Positions 82 to 42,150 of a DNA stretch of 64,000 nucleotides are shown here, piece by piece. Below the pieces are notes generated by a model. That model did not search any database. It had not been told where the DNA came from and was given only the letters and a program-made list of their open reading frames with translations. The translations under genes were made by a program, and so were the position numbers. How positions within the stretch are numbered: position 1 is the first letter of the stretch; each line of letters begins with the position of its first letter. Where the stretch lies: NCBI GenBank assembly GCA_011033025.1, contig WFMF01000192.1, positions 62,001-126,000 of the forward strand. The letters are read 5' to 3'. Source of the stretch: Beroe forskalii (taxonomy: Eukaryota; Ctenophora; Nuda; Beroida; Beroidae).

Positions 82-3000
82 ATGTCAGAAAACAGCTGCT
101 CCTCCAGCGATGAAGAAGACATTGTGATAGACGAGGACAAAGTGCAGGAACTTGAGAACAAGGTACAACCTTGGAATCCTAGAGTGATTTACTTATTAGA
201 TTATAGTTATAGATTATATTAGATTATAAGTTATAGATTATAAGTTATAGAGCTAGCAGATGAAGTGTCACGATTTCGAGAAATGTGAATTATCATTCTG
301 AAATTCCCGAGTTTCGCGGCACCATGTAAGTTAACGTACGTGCAAATTCAGTATCACGTTCGTACAGTTGTCAGTCATGTGGAAGTTTCAAATGGCGTTC
401 TCAGAACTTGCTACACCTAAAATGTATAACGTCACAAGTGATGAAGATACCCCTGGCCCAATCCATCATCATGTCAATGTTTGACTTTGAATTTTAAACC
501 TAAACTCTCAGTTGCGCGAGGAAGCAGCTCTTTTAGTTCTACTCTCTTGTTCCTCCAGGTGGTTGGGAACCCCTACGATTACAATGCTCATGTGGAACTC
601 CTGACCTTGCTGGACCAGGGCGGAGACATTGACAGATGCAGAGAGGTACGTTTCCAACTAGTGTGTGTACTCTTCCAGACTTGGTATTGATTCGGGTATC
701 ACTGAGAGAAAATTCGACATTTTATCGCCCGCCCCCCCCCCCTTCTTATTCATGTGATCCCTATATCCCAGGTTAGGGAGCGGATGAGCGGCCTGTTCCC
801 CCTCCCTCCTGACATGTGACCCCTATATCCCAGGTTAGGGAGCGGATGAGCGGCCTGTTCCCCCTCCCCCCTGACATGTGGCTGCACTGGATAAACCAGG
901 AACGTCTCTTCCTCCCTCTGGACAAGCAGAGGGTCAGAGACACACTGTCAAACCTCTACTCCCGAGCTGTCAAGGACTACTCCAGTGAGTAGCAGTCAAT
1001 CGACCGCTTTGTGATAACCCAGTCCCACGAAGCGGTCTGTTTTTAGCACCCTCTTATTTCAGTTTTATTCTGTTATGTTGGTGCTTCTAAAAAAGTAAAG
1101 AGAATACAATTTTCTTAAATAATTTAAGTACATCACAAATTAATTTTATTACTTTTGGTTCTAAATAGGAAACAATTCAATATTGAATATGTGTTTTATT
1201 CATGGAAATAAGGTGTGTATGGAATGTCTTGGCAATACTCCAATTGTTTTGCAGGTGTGAGGTTGTGGTGCCAGTACTGTGCGGACGTGGTGTCAGTGCT
1301 CGAGTTCTCTGAGGAAAAGACCAGGGAGCTCTTTGAACAAGCCCTCTCCGACGTTGGACTACACGTTACCAAGGTACACATTTACAGTAACACCTCGATA
1401 TCGTAGAGCTCTATAGTTGATTTTGAACCTTTGGACTCTGTTTGAATTTGATGTTTTGGTCCCCGATCTATTACTGGACAGCACTGAGCACACCCTCCCT
1501 ACGCTGTCCACCTTTGCGTCCTTGTTTCCCTGTGGCTGCAACAGTGTTCCAAGGCACACGGTTCGATGAACTGCTAACTAACCCCCTCCCCCATTCCCAC
1601 TCCACCTGTCCCTTCATCAAGTCCTATTTTACAACCTCGCTTGGGTATTGAGTTGTGGGGGCAGTACTACTATTCGGATTCCACGTTCCCCCAGGGTATT
1701 GAGTTGTGGGAGCAGTACTACTATTCCCCTTTCCCAGGGTATTGAGTACTACTATTCCCCTTTCCCAGGGTATTGAGTACTACTATTCCCCTTTCCCCTA
1801 GGGTATTGAGTTGTGGGGGCAGTACTACTATTCGGATTCCGCATTCCCCCAGGGTATTGAGTTGTGGGAGCAGTACTAATATTCCCCTTTCCCCCAGGGT
1901 ATTGAGTTGTGGGAGCAGTACTAATATTCCCCTTTCCCCAGGGTATTGAGTTGTGGGAGCAGTACTAATATTCCCCTTTCCCCAGGGTATTGAGTTGTGG
2001 GAGCAGTACTAATATTCCCCTTTCCCCCAGGGTATTGAGTTGTGGGAGCAGTACTACTATTCCCCTTTCCCAGGGTATTGAGTACTACTATTCCCCTTTC
2101 CCAGGGTATTGAGTTGTGAGAGCAGTACTACTATTCCTCTTTCCCCCAGGGTATTGAGTTGTGGGAGCAGTACTACTATTCCCCATTCCCCTAGGGTATT
2201 GAGTTGTGGGAGCAGTACTAATATTCCCTTTCCTCCAGGGTATTGAGTTGTGGGAGCAGTACTACTATTCCCCTTTCCCCCAGGGTATTGAGTTGTGGGA
2301 GCAGTACTACTATTCCCCATTCCCCTAGGGTATTGAGTTGTGGGAGCAGTACTAATATTCCCTTTCCTCCAGGGTATTGAGTTGTGGGAGCAGTACTACT
2401 ATTCCCCTTTCCCCCAGGGTATTGAGTTGTGGGAGCAGTACTACTATTCCCCTTTCCCCAGGGTATTGAGTTGTGGGAGCAGTACTACTATTCCTCTTTC
2501 CCTCAGGGAATTGAGTTGTGGGAGCAGTACTAATATTCCCTTTCCTCCAGGGTATTGAGTTGTGGGAGCAGTACCACTATTCCCCATTCCCCTAGGGTAT
2601 TGAGTTGTGGGAGCAGTACTTCTATTCCCCATTCCCCTAGGGTATTGAGTTGTGGGGCAGTACTTCTATTCCCCTTTCCCTAGGGTATTGAGTTGTGGGA
2701 GTTGTGGGACCACTATTCCCAGGGTATTGAGTACTACTATTCCTCTTTCCCCCAGGGTATTGAGTTGTGGGAGCAGTACTACTATTCCCCTTTCCCCAGG
2801 GTATTGAGTTGTGGGAGCAGTACCACTATTCCCCATTCCCAGGGTATTGAGTACTACTATTCCCCTTTCCCCAGGGTATTGAGTTGTGGGAGCAGTACCA
2901 CTATTCCCCATTCCCCTAGGGTATTGAGTTGTGGGAGCAGTACTTCTATTCCCCTTTCCCCTAGGGTATTGAGTTGTGGGAGCAGTACTAATATTCCCCT

Positions 3001-6000
3001 TTCCCCCAGGGTATTGAGTTGTGGGAGCAGTACTAATATTCCCCTTTCCCAGGGTATTGAGTACTACTATTCCCCTTTCCCAGGGTATTGAGTACTACTA
3101 TTCCCCTTTCCCCTAGGGTATTGAGTTGTGGGAGCAGTACTACTATTCCCCTTTCCTCCAGGGTATTGAGTTGTGGGAGCAGTACTACTATTCCCCTTTC
3201 CCCTAGGGTATTGAGTTGTGGGAGCAGTACCACTATTCCCCTTTCCTCCAGGGTATTGAGTTGTGGGAGCAGTACTACTATTCCTCTTTCCCCTAGGGTA
3301 TTGAGTTGTACCCAGGGTATTGAGTTGTATTCCCTTTCCCCAGGTATTGAGTTGTGGGAGCAGTACCACTATTCCCCCCTAGGGTATTGAGTTGTTCCCA
3401 GGGAGCAGTACTACTATTCCCCTTTCCCCTAGGGTATTGAGTTGTGGGAGCAGTACTACTATTCCCCTTCCAGGGTATTGAGTTGTGAGCAGTACTACTA
3501 TTCCCTTTCCCCCAGGGTATTGAGTTGTGGGAGCAGTACTATTCCCCTTTCCCCCCTTTCCCAGGGTATTGAGTTGTGGAGCAGTACTACTATTCCCCTT
3601 TCCCAGTGTGGTACTACTATTCCCTTGTGGGAGTTGTAGAACGGTACTATTCCCCCTTTCCTCCAGGGTATTGAGTTGTGGGAGCAGTACTAATATTCCC
3701 TTTCCTCCAGGGTATTGAGTTGTGGGAGCAGTACTACTATTCCCCATTCCCCCAGGGTATTGAGCGGGAACAGTACTAATATTCCCCATTCCCCCAGGGT
3801 ATTGAGTTGTGGGAGCAGTACTACTATTCCCCTTTCCCCCAGGGTATTGAGTTGTGGGAGCAGTACTACTATTCCCCATTCCCCAGGGTATTGAGTTGTG
3901 GGAGCAGTACTACTATTCCCTTTCCCCCAGGGTATTGAGTTGTGGGAGCAGTACTAATATTCCCTTTTCCCCCAGGGTATTGAGTTGTGGGAGCAGTACT
4001 ACTATTCCCTATTCCCCATGGTATTGCGTTGTGGGAGCAGTACCACTATTCCCCATTCCACCAGGGTAATGAGTGCTACCAATCCCCATTCCCCAGGGTA
4101 TTGAGTTGTGGGAGCAGTCCCACTATTCCCTATTTCCCCAGGGTATTGAGTTGTGGGAGCAGTACCGGCAATACGAAGAAGCTCTCCTGCTGAGCATCTC
4201 CGACAAACTCTCCCCTGCTACTGCTGAGGGCAGTGCAGGGGGAACTGGGGAAGTAGCTGATAAGGAGTTCCTGCAGGACTTGTACAACAAGCAGAGGTCC
4301 AGGGTGGAGAACCTATTTCAGAGACAGCTAGCTGTGCCGCTAACTGGTAAGTGATAATGAGGGCGATTAGTCGAGTTACAGCCGAGTGTGATAAGTTCCT
4401 TATCGAGTGGTATGAGTTTTAGGTAACGCACTGTGTCGCATCATTGCTTGTAGCAGTTACTGTGTCGATACTAGATATCACTATTCCCCTTACCCCAGGG
4501 TTAAGTTGGGGGAGCAATGTTTGATTCCCCATTTCTTTTGAACTATCAGATTTTTCTACAATTGAAACACATCTACAATTGATGATTGAGACTTTTCCTG
4601 ACGTTGACAGACCCATTCCCGAGAATCATTGAGTTGTGGGATCCTCCGACATTTTCCTTTGTTCGACTGGACTGGAGAGTGTGTTGAGAGAGTACAGGGA
4701 ATGGCTAGGAGACGAGGGGGCCGTGTCTCCCCATCTCCTGACAAGATACGAGGCTGCACTCAAGAAGAGGGAGGCTGTCCAGTCCTACGAAGAAGCTGAT
4801 AAGGAAGTCCTTTGTGTTGTACCATTTCAGAGGTCAGTGACCTATTTTGCGCTAGCACCCACGAATTTTAAACAGAGAAAAAACAAACCACGAGCCGAGG
4901 TCGACTTTTTTAACTGTCCTTTTCATGAGGGGAATCTGAGTTATTAGGTTCTCAACACTGGGTTTTAAGGTAACATTAAGCAGCACGGCAGTTACTGTGT
5001 CCTGAGATATCAGACATTGTGACCCTCAACTTACCCGTTAAGTTGAGTGTCACAATGTTTGATTACGCCAATCTTTGAACTATCAGATTTTTCTACAATT
5101 GAAACACATCTACAATTGATGATTGAGACTTTTCCTGACGTTGACAGACCCTCTCAGTCAGCTCCTCCAACATCCTCCCTGTTTGTTCGACAGGACTGGA
5201 GTTAATTGAGGAGTAAGGGAATGGCTGGGGACAGGGGCCGTGTCTCCCCATCTCCTGACAAGATACGAGGCTGCACTCATGAGATCCGAGTGTCCAGTCT
5301 TGCCCTGCCAGAATCTTTGAATAAGTGAGCTTTTGACAAATGCATTGACGTCCTACAAACCCAATGAGCGTAAGAAAGAACCTGGTCTGTCCCTTTGGTA
5401 ATCTTCCTGATGGGCAACCATGACGGACGACCCCTTGACGACTTCAACAGACGTCAACTACCTCCGCCGACTGTCGACCTCCTCAAGTTTTTGAAGACCT
5501 ACCCTCCCTTTCATCCCCACCACTACAATCAAGAAGATCCTCAACCAACACCACACCAACGACAACCTCTCCTCGCCACCTCCTCCGGAACCTCCTCACC
5601 AAGACGAAGAATACTCGTAATCCCCCAGACCCCCAATTGAATCTTGAGAGGATTGCCTCACTGCCTTCAGATCACAGCAGACAAGCCCTCTTCCCATCCT
5701 ACTGACAAAATTTCACTTCATGCTATGCTACAGACTCCACCACGCCACTTTCGACACTACGAATCTAGTTTACCTTAATTTTTGTCCATCACCACCGCGC
5801 CGGACACGTCCCCACGTCGCTTTTGAAATGAATACAAAACCGCAAATGAGGGTTCCTCCCAAGATCGTGGTCTGGAAAGAAATAGATTATGTGTATATCA
5901 GGTCCAGTTTTGCAATACAACTACTGTAATTTCTGGAAAGTGCCCGGATTGCTCCCATAATATCAGTCATGAAAATGTCCCTCCGTTTTCCGTCGTCGTC

Positions 6001-9000
6001 CACCTTCCCCATTCACTAAATCATCAAAAAATAACGAATTTCTTAATTCATGGACACTGTCGGTTCTTAAAAGTATAAATCTTATGGTTGAATCTAGTGT
6101 GAGCATGCTCGAACTCAAAAGAGATTTAAAAATTCTAAATTTAATTCTGTTTAAGAATGTGAGACCCTTCAAAAGTTAAAATCTTAGATGGAGTTGGGCG
6201 GTTTTCTGTTGAAAGGCTTCCCGTTTTGTACTAGGTTTAGTACCAAACTGCATAACTATTAGACGTAGCTTGAGAAATACTATTTGCTATGAAAGACGAA
6301 TATTGCTTTTTGGGACAAGAGACAGCATTGAAACAGAAAACAAAAAGCACGAAATTTGAAAATCAGATAAAGAGTAAATCAACTTAGTATAAACATTTAA
6401 GAAAATACATCGCGTGAATAAACAGTGACACAATTTGATGCGAAACGTAAACCAATTCAACAAAATGGCGTGAAATCTACAACGAACTGAGTACAACAAC
6501 GAACGCGCAGCAAGAATTTTTAAGAAATGGCACGTGCCAATTCATATTCTCGGTGGTCGCGCATACACGTCGAAACAATATTTATACTCTTATCACTTTA
6601 AGTTTATAACGACTGCGTTTTGTATTATCTTATTATGATGCTAAGGTTACATCAAGCACCGCTGGGGAGGGAAATTAAGCGCCTGCATACGGCCTACGGG
6701 AACAGCAATAATTGTGTCGGTGCAGGCGCAATTCTTGTTCCTTTTCTAATTCTATGTTTTGCATTGGTGGTCTTCTGTTCAAGTCAATGTTATAGTTATA
6801 CATTTACTGTATGCGGATCAAATTCACTGATCTTAGGCTTTACTTGGCAATTATCATTAATTGCTCTGATGAATCTGAGTCAGGACCCTGTTTTCCTCTC
6901 CCCAGTGAAAATTTAAATCTCCCTACTCACTTCTCACTTCCCTCAGAAACGCTGGAAGAAGCCCTAAAGAGCGGGTTCAGTGACGCGCGCAGCAACGTTC
7001 TGCTCTGGAAGTGCTACCTGAGTTGCCACTGGCGACAGGAGCGGTTTAAGCCCCTCAAGTCTAACGGCAGTTGCTCGGATGGGGAGGAGATAGAGAACAG
7101 TCCTCTGAGCCAAGCCTTCCAGCGGGCTGTGAACTCTGTGAATCAGACCTTCGGGGAGGAGGGCGACCCTACTGGTATGTCAACCTGTGTCAGATGCCTG
7201 AACAAAACAACAGTTTCAGCTGCCTTCCGTATTTAGGGCAAGAATCAGGATCTACAGATGTCATTCAACTGTCAATATCAAGTAATTGATTTCATTCTAA
7301 TCTCATGCCTATTTTCACACGAACTCTTACTCAGGTGAACTGACTCGTTTCATGGCAGAGTGTGAAGCAGAGAGGGATGATCTTAGCAGCTTCAGACAAC
7401 TCATGTCCGGACTCTTCGAATCCAGAATCTACAAGGAGCAATCAAGTTAGTCAATAGTCATCTGTTTGAGGACACCATTGGTTCTTCTTGTTGTATGTCA
7501 ACCCGAAATTACGAATAGTCTGCAGAACCGAATATTTCTACTGGATTTGGCAGTGCGATGTTGTCGATTGGCCGGGCTGCTTACCACAACTCGCAGGACT
7601 GTGGCTGGAGTTCGTGTCCCTGGAGCTAAGGTATGGGGAGGTGGAGGACGCGAGAAGGTCTTCCAGAAAGCGATACAATGCACTACTGACAACACGGAGC
7701 TCATCTTACAGAGGTTCCTCCACTTTGAGTCCGTTCATGGTGAGTAACTTGAAAAGAACTACTAGTACTACTGTCTATAATACTGAATAATCATTATCTG
7801 CAAAGTTTCGCAAATAACATTCTGTTCCACTTGTTGCCTGCCTCTTCGACTAGTAGAGTAGTAGACTATAGACTTCTACTAGGAAAATAAACCGTTGTAC
7901 AAATTGGGGTCTGAAAAAATTTTTCTCAATTTTCAGGTAACATGGAATCATACGATAACGCTGCTCTGAAGTGCAGGCGCCAGCAGAAGAAAATCGATGA
8001 AAAACGGGCCAAGGTAGAATTTTTCTTTATCTTCTCAAAATTGTATTTTGTCCAGCTCATTTCTTATTGTTCTTCTACTAGAAGTATTGCATGATGCATC
8101 AGAATCGAACTAGAAGTTCTAGTTCGATTCTGATGCATCATGCAATACTTGACGCTGTTGTTCCTTCCACTTCCCATTCCTGATTTCGTTAAAATGAGAG
8201 CCTAAAAGTTGTTCCTATCAGGATGCTGAAAAGCAAGAGCAGCAGAGTAAGAAACAAGAACAACAGAGCAAGAAACAGGAGCCCAGTGAGAGCAAGCCGA
8301 GTAAGAAGAGCAAGCAACCACTCAACAAGAAGAGGAAAATGTCCTCTGAACCTGCTGACGAAGTGACGCCTAAGCACCCCAAACCCAACCAACCAGCTCC
8401 CTGTACGAAGTCCCCTGCTAAATTCCCTCGTAACCCTGACTCCCAATCAGCCGAGGTGGACAAGAGCAAGTACCCCGTTACTGTGTTCGTCAGCAACCTC
8501 TCCTACTCAGCCACAGAGGACGACCTGAACGACACTTTCAAGCAAGTCGGCGACATCGTCGACATCCGTCTCGTGAAGAGTGTGAACAACAAATCCCGGG
8601 GATTTGGCTACATTGAATTCCACACGCGGGAAGAAGCCCTGGCTGCCCTGGAGATGGACAGGGTGCCGGTACTGGAGAGACCGTGTTACGTGAGCGAGTG
8701 TAAGGAGCGGGGTGAGGGCAGCAGGGCGGAGTTCAAGTTCAGCACCCGACTAGAGAAACACAAGGTGTTTGTAAACAATCTGCCGTACTCTGTCAGCGAG
8801 GCGGAGCTGAGGGCGATGTTTGAGGGGGTGGGCAAAGTATCCAGTGTCAGGATGGTGACCACTAAGAGTGGCAAGTTCAAGGGATACGCGTATGTGGAGT
8901 ATGGGAGCAGTGAGGATGCCAGTAGGGCTGTACTCGAGCTCAATGGCAAGGAGGTAGGGGAAAGGCCCATGGGCGTGGCTATATCCAACCCTCCCGGCAA

Positions 9001-12420: not shown

Positions 12421-12489
12421 CATTTTTTGTGCGCGCACAACGGGTTTTCCCATTTTTTTAAATAATTTTTAATTTTATAGTTATTTAAG

Positions 12490-15245
12490 AACAAGAACGG
12501 AACCGGAACTTAGATCTTAGAGAACAAGATCGTAGAACTGGATTTAGATCTTAGAACAAGATCGTGGGAACTGGATTTAGATCTTGGAACAAGATCATGG
12601 AACCGGAACGAGATCGTGGAACAGGATTTAGATCTTAGAACAGATCTGGATGGGCGGAACAAGATCGTGGAGCAGGATCGTAGAACTGGATTTTAGATCT
12701 TGGGGCCCAGGATCATGGAACCGAACAAGATCGTGGAATCGTAGATAAATGATAGATCTTGGAATCTTGGAACAAGGATCCTTGGGCCCAGAGAACAAGA
12801 TCGTGGGGCAGGATCGTAGAACTGGATTTAGATCTTGGAACAGGATCATGGGTGGCAGAACAAGATCAGTGGAACAGGATCGTAGAACTGGATTTAGATC
12901 TTGGAAGGATCTTGGAACAGGATCATTGGAACGGAGTTTAGATCTTGGAGGGAGTTTAGATCTTGGAGACAGGATGTAGGATGTAGATCTTGGAACAGGA
13001 TCATGGAACTGGAACAAGATCTTGGGACAGGATCTGAACTGGATGTAGATCTTGGGAACAGGATCATGGAACCGGAACAAGATCGTGGAATTGGAACAGG
13101 ATCGTGGAACTGGATTTAGATCTTGGAACAGGATCTTGGAACCGGAACAAGATCGTGGAACAGGATTTTAGATCTTGGAACAGGATCGTGGAACTGGATA
13201 ACAGATCTTGGAACAAGATCTTGGAACAGGATCGTGGAACTGGATGTAGATCTTGGAACAGAGATCAGATCGTGGGGGACAGGATCGATGAACTGGATTT
13301 AGATCTTGGAACAGGATCTTGGAACAGGATCGTGGAACTGGATGTAGATCTTGGAACAGGATCATGGAACTGGAACAAGTCTGGTTAGATCTTGGATCGT
13401 GGAACAGGATCTGGAACAGGATCACCGGAACAAAGATCGTGGAACAGGATCAGGAATTGGATTTAGATCTTGGAACAGGATCGTGGAACTGGATTTAGGG
13501 CTTGGAGACAAGATCTTCCCTTGAACTGGATTTAGTGGAACAGGATCATGGAACTGGAACAAGATCTTAAAACAGGATCGTGGAACTGGATGTAGATCTT
13601 GGAACAGGATCACAGAACCGGAACAAGATCGTGGAACAGGGTCGTAGAACTAGATTTAGATCTTGGAACAGGATCGTGGAACTGGATTTAGATCTTGGAA
13701 CAGGAGCATGGAACAAGATCGTGGAACAGGATCGTAGAACTGGATTTAGATCTTGGAACAGGATCTTGGATGGAACCGGAACAAGATTTTAAAACAGGAT
13801 CATGGAACTGGATATAGATCGACTTGGAACAGGGTCATGGAACTGGAACAAGATCTTGGAGACAGGATCGTAGAGCTGATTTAGATCTTGGAACAGGATC
13901 GTGGAACTGGATGTAGATCTTGGAACAGGATCATGGAACTGGAACAAGATCTTGGAACAGGATCGTGGAACTGGATGTAGATCTTGGAACAGGATCTTGG
14001 AACCAAGATCGGAACAGGATCGTGGAACTGGATTTAGATCTTGGAACAGGATCTTTGGAACGGGATCTTGGGGCAGGATCGTGGAACAGGATGTAGATCT
14101 TGGAACAGGATCATGGAACTGGAACAAGATCTTGGAAGGACAGAGGATTTAGGACAAGATCTTGGAACAGGATCACGTGGAACTGGATGTAGATCTTGGA
14201 ACAGGATCATGGAACCGGGAACAGATCGTGGGGGCAGGATCGTAGGTGGATTTAGATCTTGGAACAGGATCGTGGAACTGGATTTAGATCTTGGAACAGG
14301 ATCGTGGAATAGGATCCTTGAACTGGATTTAGATCTTGGAACAGGATCATGGAACTGGAACAAGATCTTAAAACAGGATCGTGGAACTGGATGTAGATCT
14401 TGGAACAGGATCACAGAACCGGAACAAGATCGTGGAACAGGGTCATAAGAACTGGATTTACAAGATCTTGGAACAGGATCGTGGAACTGGATTTGAGATC
14501 TTGGAACAGGAGCACAGAACGTGGAACAAGATGGATTTTGGACAGGATCGTAGAACTGGATTTAGATCTTGGAACAGGATTTAGATCTTGGAACAGGATC
14601 ATGGAACTGGATATAGATCGACTTGGAACAGGGTCATGGAACTGGAACAAGATCTTGGAGCAGGATCGTAGAACTGGATTTAGATCTTGGAACAAGATCT
14701 TAAAACCCAGGACTGGGGGATCGTAGAACTGGATTTAGATCTTGGAACAGGATCATGGAGCCAGAACAAGATCGTGGATGACAGGATCAAATAGAACTGG
14801 ATTTAGATCTAGGAACGGATCATGGAACTGGATTTGGAACATAGATCTTCATGTAGCAACTAGAACAAGCATGGAACGGAACGATCGTGGAACAGGATCA
14901 TTAGAACTGGATTTAGATCTTGGAACAGGATCGTGGAACTGGATTTAGATCTTATAGAACATAGCTCACCATCTTAGATCGTGGAACATAGATCAATAGA
15001 TCGTAGCTGGATTTAGATCTAGAAACAGCTGATAGTGGAACTGGATTTAGATCTTAGGAACATAGCCCACTGGATCGTGGAACATCGATCAATAGATCGT
15101 AGCTCACTAGAACAAGATCATGAACCGGAACAGGATCGTGTTACTGGATTAGGATTTAGATCTTGGAACAGGATCATGGAACTGGATTTAGAATTAGATC
15201 TTAGACCAAAACTCACTAGATCATAGATCGTGGAACATATATCAA
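12490..15245 (+). repeat. GATC-rich satellite, 32-bp unit built of two 16-bp halves
   Basis: Dominant unit: GGATCGTGGAACTGGATTTA followed by GATCTTGGAACA, 32 bp, with half-unit similarity (GATCNTGGAAC). Variants read GGATCATGGAACTGGAACAA-GATCTTGGAACA or GGATGTAGATC. Near-regular GATC spacing throughout; units decay towards 14800-15240. Open frames here have Trp-Asn-Arg-type repeat peptides that rotate frame and are not genes. Confidence 0.95.
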
Positions 15246-17280: not shown

Positions 17281-17650
17281 TGTTCCAGTCCACCCGTTCC
17301 GACTATTTCCCAGATCTTGTTCAGTTCCATGATCCCTGTTCCCAAGATACATCCAGTTCCACGATCCTGTTCCAGATCTAAATCCCAGTTCCACGATCTG
17401 TTCTAAGATCCTGATCCAGTTCTACGATCCTGCTCCACGATCTTGTTCCGGTTCCATGATCTTGTTCTAAGATCTAAATCCTGTTCCACGATCTTGTTCC
17501 GGTTCCATGATCTTGTTCCAAGATCTAATTCCAGTTCCATGATCTTGTTCCAAGATCTAATTCCAGTTCTACGATCTTGTTCTAAGATCTAAATCCAGTT
17601 CTACGATCTTGTTCTAAGAATCTAAGATCTAAGTTCCGGTTCCGTTCTTG
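17280..17650 (-). repeat. GATC satellite, inverted arm
   Basis: Reverse complement of the 12490-15245 unit, for example TCCACGATCTTGTTCC and AGATCTAAATCCAGTTC repeated at about 32-40 bp. It joins the inverted-repeat end at 17628-17720. Confidence 0.9.
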
Positions 17651-40277: not shown

Positions 40278-40786
40278 TTTTACACTTGCAGAGAGGATCG
40301 GAAGTTATATGAATTGTTTCTAAGTGAATAGTTTCTTTTATGAAGCTCTCGTTAAGTTTTTCGATAGACCGGATTTGATGTATAATTATGAGTTATTTTA
40401 ACCATGATAATTTTCATAATCATAGTATTATTTCTTATTTGGATTCAGACAATGCAATCTATTCATGGTAGCTTTCGTATCTCCACTCGTCCAATGATAA
40501 AAGTTAAGTCAAAACGACCAAAATTACTGAATTACGTGTTTCTAAACATAACTTTGAGCATTAAATCGGCTTTAAGAGTGCCTTGCACGGGATAGAAATA
40601 AAATTTCAGCTTATTGTACGTTACTATGGGGAATGGGGAAAAAACGTTGCATTGTGCCACCTTTTTATCTTGTTAAGTGGTACTGGTGCTAAGACTTCAT
40701 GAGGATAACTAAAAAACTTACCGAAGTGTTCATATACATTCCAATTTCGCTACCAATGCCTTGTGTTTATCCATTGCCCCCCTCAG
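40278..40786 (+). other. Gap between homeobox and zinc-finger genes
   Basis: AT-rich. The upstream exon or exons of the zinc-finger gene should lie here or further away; I could not pick them. The homeobox 3' UTR occupies the start. Confidence 0.5.
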
Positions 40787-41971
40787 GACGTTGACGCTAG
40801 GTTTGTATCTCTCCTCCACTCTGATGGTAGGACTGACAATGGGAGTCCCTTAGTAGGCGGTCCCGTGCTGGAGGATGATACCAACCCCGCCCTCCTGTCA
40901 ACCCTCGTCTCTCTGGCAACCACCCAAAACAGGGGAACTCCTGGCAAACTGCCACATTCCGCCTTCTCAGGGCTGATCTCGGGGCTGAACAACATGACAA
41001 GTAAGAGTGACAGTGAGGTAGTGGTAACTAGAAGTGTGGACACAAAGTCAGGCGGGGAACCTATCAAGGATGATTTTGTGTCCAAGTCTCTGCCTGACGT
41101 AAGGTCACCAATCGGACAATTTGTACTACCTAGCAACCAACTGACAACTACATGCCAACATCACCAATCATCCGGTACTGATTATCTGCTATCTAGCAGT
41201 CACATGTTGCGACCATCTGATAGTCAAGTGATGCAACCATCCAGCACTCAAGTGCAACATGCATCTGGCAGTCCAGTGCAACAGTCATCCAGCACTCAAG
41301 TGATGCAACCATCAGGCACTCAAGTGCAACAGTCATCAGGCAGCCAAGTGATGCAACCATCTAGCAGTAAAGTGATGCAACCATCTAGCAGTAAAATGCA
41401 ACAGCAACAGTCATCTAGCAATCAAGTGCACCAGTCATTTTGCACCCATTCCTCTTATCTCAGCACCCTCTCCACTCCATTAGGCACCCAATTAGACACA
41501 TTGCCCAGTAGCACCGCATCCCCACTCTGCCCTGGAAGCCTCCACTCCCACCCCGTCACTACTCCCCAACCACTGCTCCACAAACACTCAGCACAAAGCA
41601 GTGGCGAGTCCAGCTTCGAGACCATCTCCGTCAGTCCTCCCTGCAGACCTTCTCCCAGCCACCTGATATCGCCCCCTGCCGCCTCTCAGCCAACCAAGCC
41701 GCTGCCCATCATACCCGCCAAAGTGCCTCAGCCGCCAGTGAGCCGCCCGAGGAAGTCTCCGCCGCCTAGAGGCGCTAAACGGGCGCTGAACGAGGTGTGC
41801 GACCACCGCCTCAAGTTCATCTCAGGGAGCACCTACGCGTGCACAAACTGCAGCGACTACTTCGAGAGGCTGCCTGCGGAGTGCCTGTCTTGCAGCCTCT
41901 GCGGGAAGCAGTTCACTCACCGCCACCTCCTGCTCCAGCACAACAACGAGGTCCACGCGCTGCAGTCGTGA
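40787..41971 (+). CDS. 3' exon of a C2H2 zinc-finger protein (5' part not found)
   Basis: An acceptor (CCATTGCCCCCCTCAG) precedes phase-0 coding sequence D-V-D-A-R-F-V-S-L-L, 394 codons to TGA; no ATG lies in frame upstream, so earlier exons are missing. Residues about 135-225 are Gln/Ser/Met repeats of about ten residues (Q-V-M-Q-P-S-S-S/T), a Pro-rich basic stretch follows, then two Cys pairs: Y-A-C-T-N-C and a full finger C-S-L-C-x12-H-x4-H (CSLCGKQFTHRHLLLQH...VH) close to the C-terminus. A nuclear DNA-binding or cofactor role is inferred. Its last codons H-A-L-Q-S-stop seed the array that follows. Confidence 0.75.
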   Translation, partial: DVDARFVSLLHSDGRTDNGSPLVGGPVLEDDTNPALLSTLVSLATTQNRGTPGKLPHSAFSGLISGLNNMTSKSDSEVVVTRSVDTKSGGEPIKDDFVSKSLPDVRSPIGQFVLPSNQLTTTCQHHQSSGTDYLLSSSHMLRPSDSQVMQPSSTQVQHASGSPVQQSSSTQVMQPSGTQVQQSSGSQVMQPSSSKVMQPSSSKMQQQQSSSNQVHQSFCTHSSYLSTLSTPLGTQLDTLPSSTASPLCPGSLHSHPVTTPQPLLHKHSAQSSGESSFETISVSPPCRPSPSHLISPPAASQPTKPLPIIPAKVPQPPVSRPRKSPPPRGAKRALNEVCDHRLKFISGSTYACTNCSDYFERLPAECLSCSLCGKQFTHRHLLLQHNNEVHALQS

Positions 41972-42150
41972 GAATGTCACGCGCTGCAGTCGTGACCATG
42001 TCACACACTGCAGTCGTGATCATGTCACGCGCTGCAGTCGTGACCCTGTCACGCGCTGCATTCGTGACCATGTCACGCGCTGCAGTCGTGACCATGTCAC
42101 GCGCTGCAGTCGTGACCATGTCACGCGCTGCAGTCGTGACGCTGTCAAGT
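41949..42150 (+). repeat. 24-bp minisatellite grown from the zinc-finger gene's last codons and stop
   Basis: Seven to eight units of GTGACCATGTCACGCGCTGC-AGTC. The first unit is the coding end itself (CACGCGCTGCAGTCGTGA). Each later unit repeats CACGCGCTGCAGTCGTGA and adds CCATGT. Units are 24 bp, so frames stay constant. It forms the start of the 3' UTR. Confidence 0.92.

Follow-up and report, generated by a model that had tools for sequence, protein, structure and literature searches.

The SART3 locus and the array before exon E

We analyzed a stretch of 64,000 nucleotides (hereafter the window), located on contig C239 of a 216-Mb eukaryote assembly of 1134 contigs. The first 9.3 kb of the window contain a SART3 gene that carries, between its exons D and E, a long tandem array built from copies of an intron–exon boundary. 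With the exons and repeats between 82 and 5310 all lying on the plus strand, the coding part of exon A, beginning MSENSCSSSDEED, was found by translation at 82–163 (placed on C239), while translation together with alignment to human SART3 gave exon B at 559–645, exon C at 834–984 (with acceptor scoring in addition), exon D at 1255–1373 and exon E, of 205 nt, at 4142–4346. The protein joined from exons A–F was compared with human SART3 structures and matched 5jpz_A with an E-value of 1.9e-40, and the last exon was found to encode RRMs (RRM_1, in two stretches); both domains by which SART3 is recognized, the HAT repeats at the N-terminus and the RRMs at the C-terminus, were thus present. Exon D, which ends in phase 0, has ...HVTK as its last residues, and those that open exon E are GIELWEQYRQYE; at this junction the query lhvtkgielweqyrqye aligned without gaps opposite LHMTKGLALWEAYREFE of human SART3. 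Because human SART3 crosses the D–E junction gap-free, position 4142 is, as judged by this alignment, the conserved start of exon E. That exon gave a single match across the assembly.

The array was called by Tandem Repeats Finder (TRF) at 1776–4165, with a 45-bp period and 53.1 copies, and with an alternative 89-bp period scoring 2515. Searching with the anchor GGTATTGAG, allowing at most two errors, we obtained 59 anchors (56 of them exact), which delimit 58 units from 1644 to 4141 and, in addition, the true exon start at 4142; copy number and the lengths of C-runs are given here as they stand in the assembly sequence. The 45-nt consensus unit consists of the 24 nt of the exon start, GGTATTGAGTTGTGGGAGCAGTAC, followed by the 21 nt of the intron end, TACTATTCCCCTTTCCCCCAG. 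It was also clear that the repeat unit spans the authentic intron–exon boundary, which itself is intact at the end of the array, as is the case in the repeats of amphioxus known as mirages. Unit length was 45 nt in 22 of the 58 units, 44 nt in 11, 43 nt in five and 31–33 nt in eight, with the remaining 12 having other sizes (19 to 102 nt), and it was divisible by three in 32/58; the eight units of 31–33 nt have no counterpart of about half of the exon part. A DNA search of the whole assembly gave at least 25 matches to the array, all of them on C239, and thus placed the array at a single site.

These counts confirmed the original prediction of some 50–60 tandem copies of a 3' splice site within a SART3 intron, while its description of every unit as carrying a pyrimidine tract, a CAG and the first 24 nt of the exon was correct only in part. 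An AG indeed ends 56 of the 58 units, but it is present as CAG in 43 and as TAG in 13, and the exact 24-nt exon start is found in 36/58 units, or in 42/58 if up to one mismatch is allowed. As for the two units not ending with AG, that at 3316 reflects merely an anchor off by one base, and in that ending at 4019 the AG has been lost.

Acceptor look-alikes upstream of exon E

We asked how closely the copies resemble functional acceptors. Requiring a YAG with at least 11 pyrimidines among the 14 positions from −17 to −4, we found 55 sites upstream of 4142. Using a matrix made from eight other SART3 acceptors, a small set whose own members score 10.8–16.8 partly for that reason, the true acceptor scored 9.02, a value reached or exceeded by 37 of 57 upstream sites and by only 1.7% of the 1836 other plus-strand YAGs of the window. 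A branch-point match equal to or better than that of the true acceptor was found for 12 of the 57 upstream sites, using general weights not fitted to these sites. The dozens of upstream look-alikes that had been predicted are hence present. Estimated RNA accessibility placed the true acceptor at ranks 21, 15 and 38 of 58 by unpaired probability under three window settings, a rough estimate with some values slightly negative, and because of these ranks structure does not single out the true acceptor.

It had furthermore been predicted that the 45-bp units read without stops, allowing upstream acceptors to insert multiples of 15 residues, and this was contradicted by the frames. When read from the phase 0 end of exon D, 17 of the 55 upstream acceptors were in frame with exon E, and a single one of the 55 kept the frame open into it; the other 54 met a stop after 4–135 codons. 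The exception is the last array unit, 4097–4141, where an exon start at 4097 would add the 15 residues GIELWEQSHYSLFPQ. Among the 22 units of 45 nt, nine were free of in-frame stops and 13 contained one, with stops arising from TACTAAT and also from the TAG variant of the acceptor, which closes a 45-nt unit with a TAG stop. That the units serve protein length variation, being translated as 15-residue inserts into a HAT repeat, therefore appeared very improbable, in spite of the open acceptor at 4097. Coding use of the copies was rejected with regard to frame, to stops and to rare variants, which show no coding constraint (see below).

The units could also be imagined as mini-introns for recursive splicing, with GGTATTG serving as donor and the following CAG as acceptor, considering that they read AG|GGTATTG and that a GT stands right after nearly every AG. 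As a donor, however, AGG|GTATTG scored −1.3, while scores of the nine SART3 donors from which the matrix had been built ranged from 6.8 to 10.5, and 61% of all GT dinucleotides in the window scored at least as high. The unit GT is accordingly a poor donor, no usable donor was found in the unit with this matrix, and recursive splicing was rejected as scarcely credible.

The array could also act as a length-dependent modifier of splicing, with a longer array lowering the correct inclusion of exon E and thereby setting SART3 dosage, either through decoy acceptors and nonsense-mediated decay or through skipping of exon E, the 205 nt of which imply a frame shift; autoregulation, which the present data neither favor nor contradict, would be the regulated form of such a modifier. 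The scores of the 37 decoys and the stops behind 54 of the 55 upstream acceptors would both suit this explanation, as would a human example, the variable number tandem repeat (VNTR) in intron 18 of ABCA7, in which the 25-bp unit reportedly begins with a splice donor and skipping of exon 19 rises with length (PMC5954066). Retention of a single unit there amounts to about 2%, as we understand the relevant passage of that paper (PMC5954066). The two repeats are alike in that the neighboring splice site is copied within the unit, and they differ in that the ABCA7 repeat has a 25-bp unit on the donor side and measured effects on skipping, whereas the SART3 array lies on the acceptor side and is known from its sequence. 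Against a modifier speak the amphioxus mirages, which are reported in the excerpts of two papers to leave regular splicing undisturbed (PMC3087553, PMC3902484), and the lack of any sign of selection for the AG, which is kept no better than neighboring exon-derived bases. Weighing these points, we consider a length-dependent modifier unlikely. A literature search limited to titles and the openings of abstracts showed no report of SART3 autoregulation among the papers listed. A length-tunable rheostat, in which array length would set the loss of SART3 pre-mRNA to poison acceptors or to exon E skipping, we regard as decidedly unlikely; if true, it would mean that an animal outside the chordates adjusts the dosage of a core factor in U4/U6 recycling by means of a hypervariable minisatellite.

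Variation within the array and its likely origin

The 58 units comprise 44 distinct types, and the longest exact repeat, of 180 nt, recurs at a spacing of 134 nt, because of which we consider that blocks of units have been duplicated. Identical twins were found for none of the last four units, for 21 of the 50 inner units and for three of the first four, and the four units adjoining the exon lie outside the homogenized zone, as determined by nearest-neighbor similarity (one-sided Mann–Whitney p 0.013). Internal concerted evolution with exclusion of boundary units, a property of mirages, was hence seen at the exon end, while the units of the outer end were not excluded. That the array grew at its exon end was considered and rejected, with 19 of 24 twinned units located in the distal half and none among the four next to the exon. 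Rare variants, here those present in at most two copies, were of 10 types in the 24 exon-half positions and of nine in the 21 intron-half positions (tabulated by hand), and they included a stop, TGG to TGA. Because rare variants are equally many in the two halves and include a stop, the recent changes appear to have occurred without coding constraint.

Taken together, the array is likely to be a minisatellite born by tandem duplication of the D–E boundary and since expanded in blocks, mostly a tolerated burden and not a device; support is good for the structure and for this likely origin. In its favor also speak the further boundary duplication in SART3, the abundance of tandem repeats in the window and the precedent of the amphioxus mirages (see below). 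A segment across the boundary between intron D–E and exon E would first have been tandemly duplicated, with the copies landing on the intron side and the real exon kept intact as the last copy. Because the copies sit on the intron side and leave the real exon intact, such an array could grow with little harm, and it would have expanded by duplication of blocks of one to several units, accompanied by changes in C-run length and by a 12-nt deletion in several units. The evident advantage of the true site is its proximity to the donor of its own exon, and exon definition is therefore the mechanism that we infer: since the donor at 4346 would be paired with acceptors close by, the spliceosome would mostly use 4142. 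The next unit, at 4097, may yield a minor isoform with 15 additional residues, and usage of distant units would introduce early stops into the mRNA, for which degradation is to be expected.

Several results speak against such a tolerated burden, or at least are not predicted by it. Eleven of the 57 upstream sites equal or beat the true acceptor on matrix and branch-point scores alike; sequence strength alone gives the true site no privilege and does not predict that 4142 should win. Raw substitutions, moreover, numbered 11 in the 24 exon-half positions versus 70 in the 21 intron-half positions, the exon half thus being much less changed, and substitution variants present in at least three units were confined to the intron half (0/10 versus 7/16 types, Fisher p 0.023 with hand-entered counts), although variants spread through block duplication make such counts non-independent. 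Simple neutrality does not predict this difference between the halves. The 12-nt deletion, which lies within the exon half, is itself shared by several units.

With regard to known systems, the array looks like a very long case of a known kind of repeat, the boundary-spanning minisatellite, and is best read as an acceptor-side mirage. Mirages have been described in amphioxus for Adh3, for the globins BflGb6 and BflGb9 and for TnC, with PGBD5 compared to them, and in the excerpts of these papers their length is reported as unstable (PMC3087553, PMC3902484). Like these, going by the excerpts, the SART3 array consists of minisatellite-like tandem copies of an intron–exon boundary, and its unit size falls within their spread (10–72 bp in Adh3, 150–160 bp in BflGb6). 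The likeness to BflGb6 extends to the composition of the unit, being the 3' end of an intron plus the 5' part of an exon, while BflGb6 is described in the excerpt with 3 and 6 units, compared with 58 here. In the amphioxus globin mirage the boundary units escape homogenization, according to the excerpt (PMC3087553), as do the units at the exon boundary of the SART3 array. Our literature search, with many journals outside its coverage, matched only amphioxus papers on mirages (PMC3087553, PMC3902484). In contrast to those cases, the host of the SART3 array is probably no cephalochordate. On the 13.3-kb contig C1134 we found a cox1 in which TGA is read as Trp and five of seven AGR codons stand opposite Arg in 7o37_a. 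Judged by the mitochondrial codes of animal groups, and with C1134 assumed to come from the same animal, AGR as Arg probably does not fit a cephalochordate or most bilaterians, whereas a sponge or a cnidarian would agree with it. The cox1 lies in the first 2844 bases (L028) of this contig, of 13,339 bp in full, and is divergent, with seven AGR codons and no CGN codons. Unusual features are the high number of units, a host that is likely not a chordate and the presence in SART3 of another boundary duplication (62 bp, at exon C), and the array suggests that boundary minisatellites are not limited to amphioxus.

Introns can also be gained through tandem genomic duplication, where duplication of a segment with AGGT creates a new intron inside an exon, according to the excerpt of the paper concerned (PMC3443670). 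As in that process, to the extent that the excerpt describes it, tandem duplication in SART3 copied splice signals; unlike it, the array extends an existing intron, and no new intron was seen. Human introns have reportedly also arisen from tandem arrays, to judge from the title of Zhuo et al. 2007.

The locus offers a natural competition test of 3' splice-site choice, as a single intron of a presumably needed gene contains about 57 acceptors that are nearly identical. If 4142 is still chosen, the array would measure how strongly exon definition outweighs site strength, and if not, the length of a minisatellite would be linked to splicing-factor dosage.

A further explanation, that the array is real but that misassembly or mis-polishing has produced a wrong length, wrong unit phases and some wrong flanking patches, we hold to be rather improbable, although several features point in its direction. 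The next intron has array-like patches where its duplicate copy differs, CTG stands for CAG before exon F, the reading frame changes inside exon I, and the BflGb6 mirage is itself reported, in the excerpt, to have been aberrantly assembled in a genome draft. In addition, a partial second copy of exons A–C, with 91% identity across 1737 aligned columns, lies on contig C969; it carries indels and breaks off at a gap of 100 N, short of where the array would start, and may be another haplotype or a paralogue. On the other hand, 44 distinct types of unit, whose variants are linked, would not be expected from a looped consensus. The argument from stops is also mostly independent of phase errors, as a TAA-bearing unit begins at 3931, and therefore even with perfect 45-nt phasing only a few later acceptors could be open.

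Neighboring duplications and repeats

The second boundary duplication in SART3 was called by TRF at 751–880, as a 62-bp tandem duplication of 2.1 copies over the acceptor and the first part of exon C, and it was also found, with indels, in the C969 copy. Usage of the upstream copy of the exon C acceptor would add 62 nt, reading VRERMSGLFPLPPDM, with a stop after 15 codons.

Downstream of exon E, a lone degenerate array-like unit was found in intron E–F at 4480–4516 (85% over 40 columns, E 1.2e-5). A duplication within 4340–5345 covers exon F together with part of its intron: the first copy, of the intron end with exon F (4540–4836, limits approximate), is in frame and has CTG instead of CAG ahead of GACTGGAG, and the second (5081–5310, limits approximate) is decayed, having kept the CAG acceptor with its reading frame broken. 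Array-like patches occur within the first copy of exon F and its intron. The differences between the duplicates could stem from conversion, template switching or polishing error. A hairpin-like inverted repeat, TGTGACCCTCAACTTACCC...GTTAAGTTGAGTGTCACA, was noted by eye at 5013–5070 in the second intron E–F copy, where the first copy is array-like. Further downstream, the reading frame shifts inside exon I (7597–7739), possibly due to an assembly indel. The RRM exon gave 21 matches in the assembly, one identical and the others 24–41% alike. A search of IMG/VR gave no relatives of the SART3 protein (12 pattern stretches, none confirmed) and no match for the exact 24-nt start of exon E.

TRF arrays with a period of at least 10 cover 13.3% of the bases of the window, compared with 0 (L011), 1.2 (L022), 2.8 (L010), 8.4 (L013) and 10.6% (L012) in 10-kb stretches elsewhere, and 2.6% in L009, these comparison stretches being a non-random sample. 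At 12488–15202 lies a large 32/64-bp minisatellite of GATCTTGGAACAG type, with a smaller array of similar unit, as seen by eye, in reverse orientation about 2 kb off, at 17307–17625. Coding edges may be sites where this genome tends to form minisatellites. A 24-bp array of eight copies at 41954–42147 repeats the last codons and the stop of the open reading frame at 40709–41971, being a coding-edge minisatellite at the 3' end.

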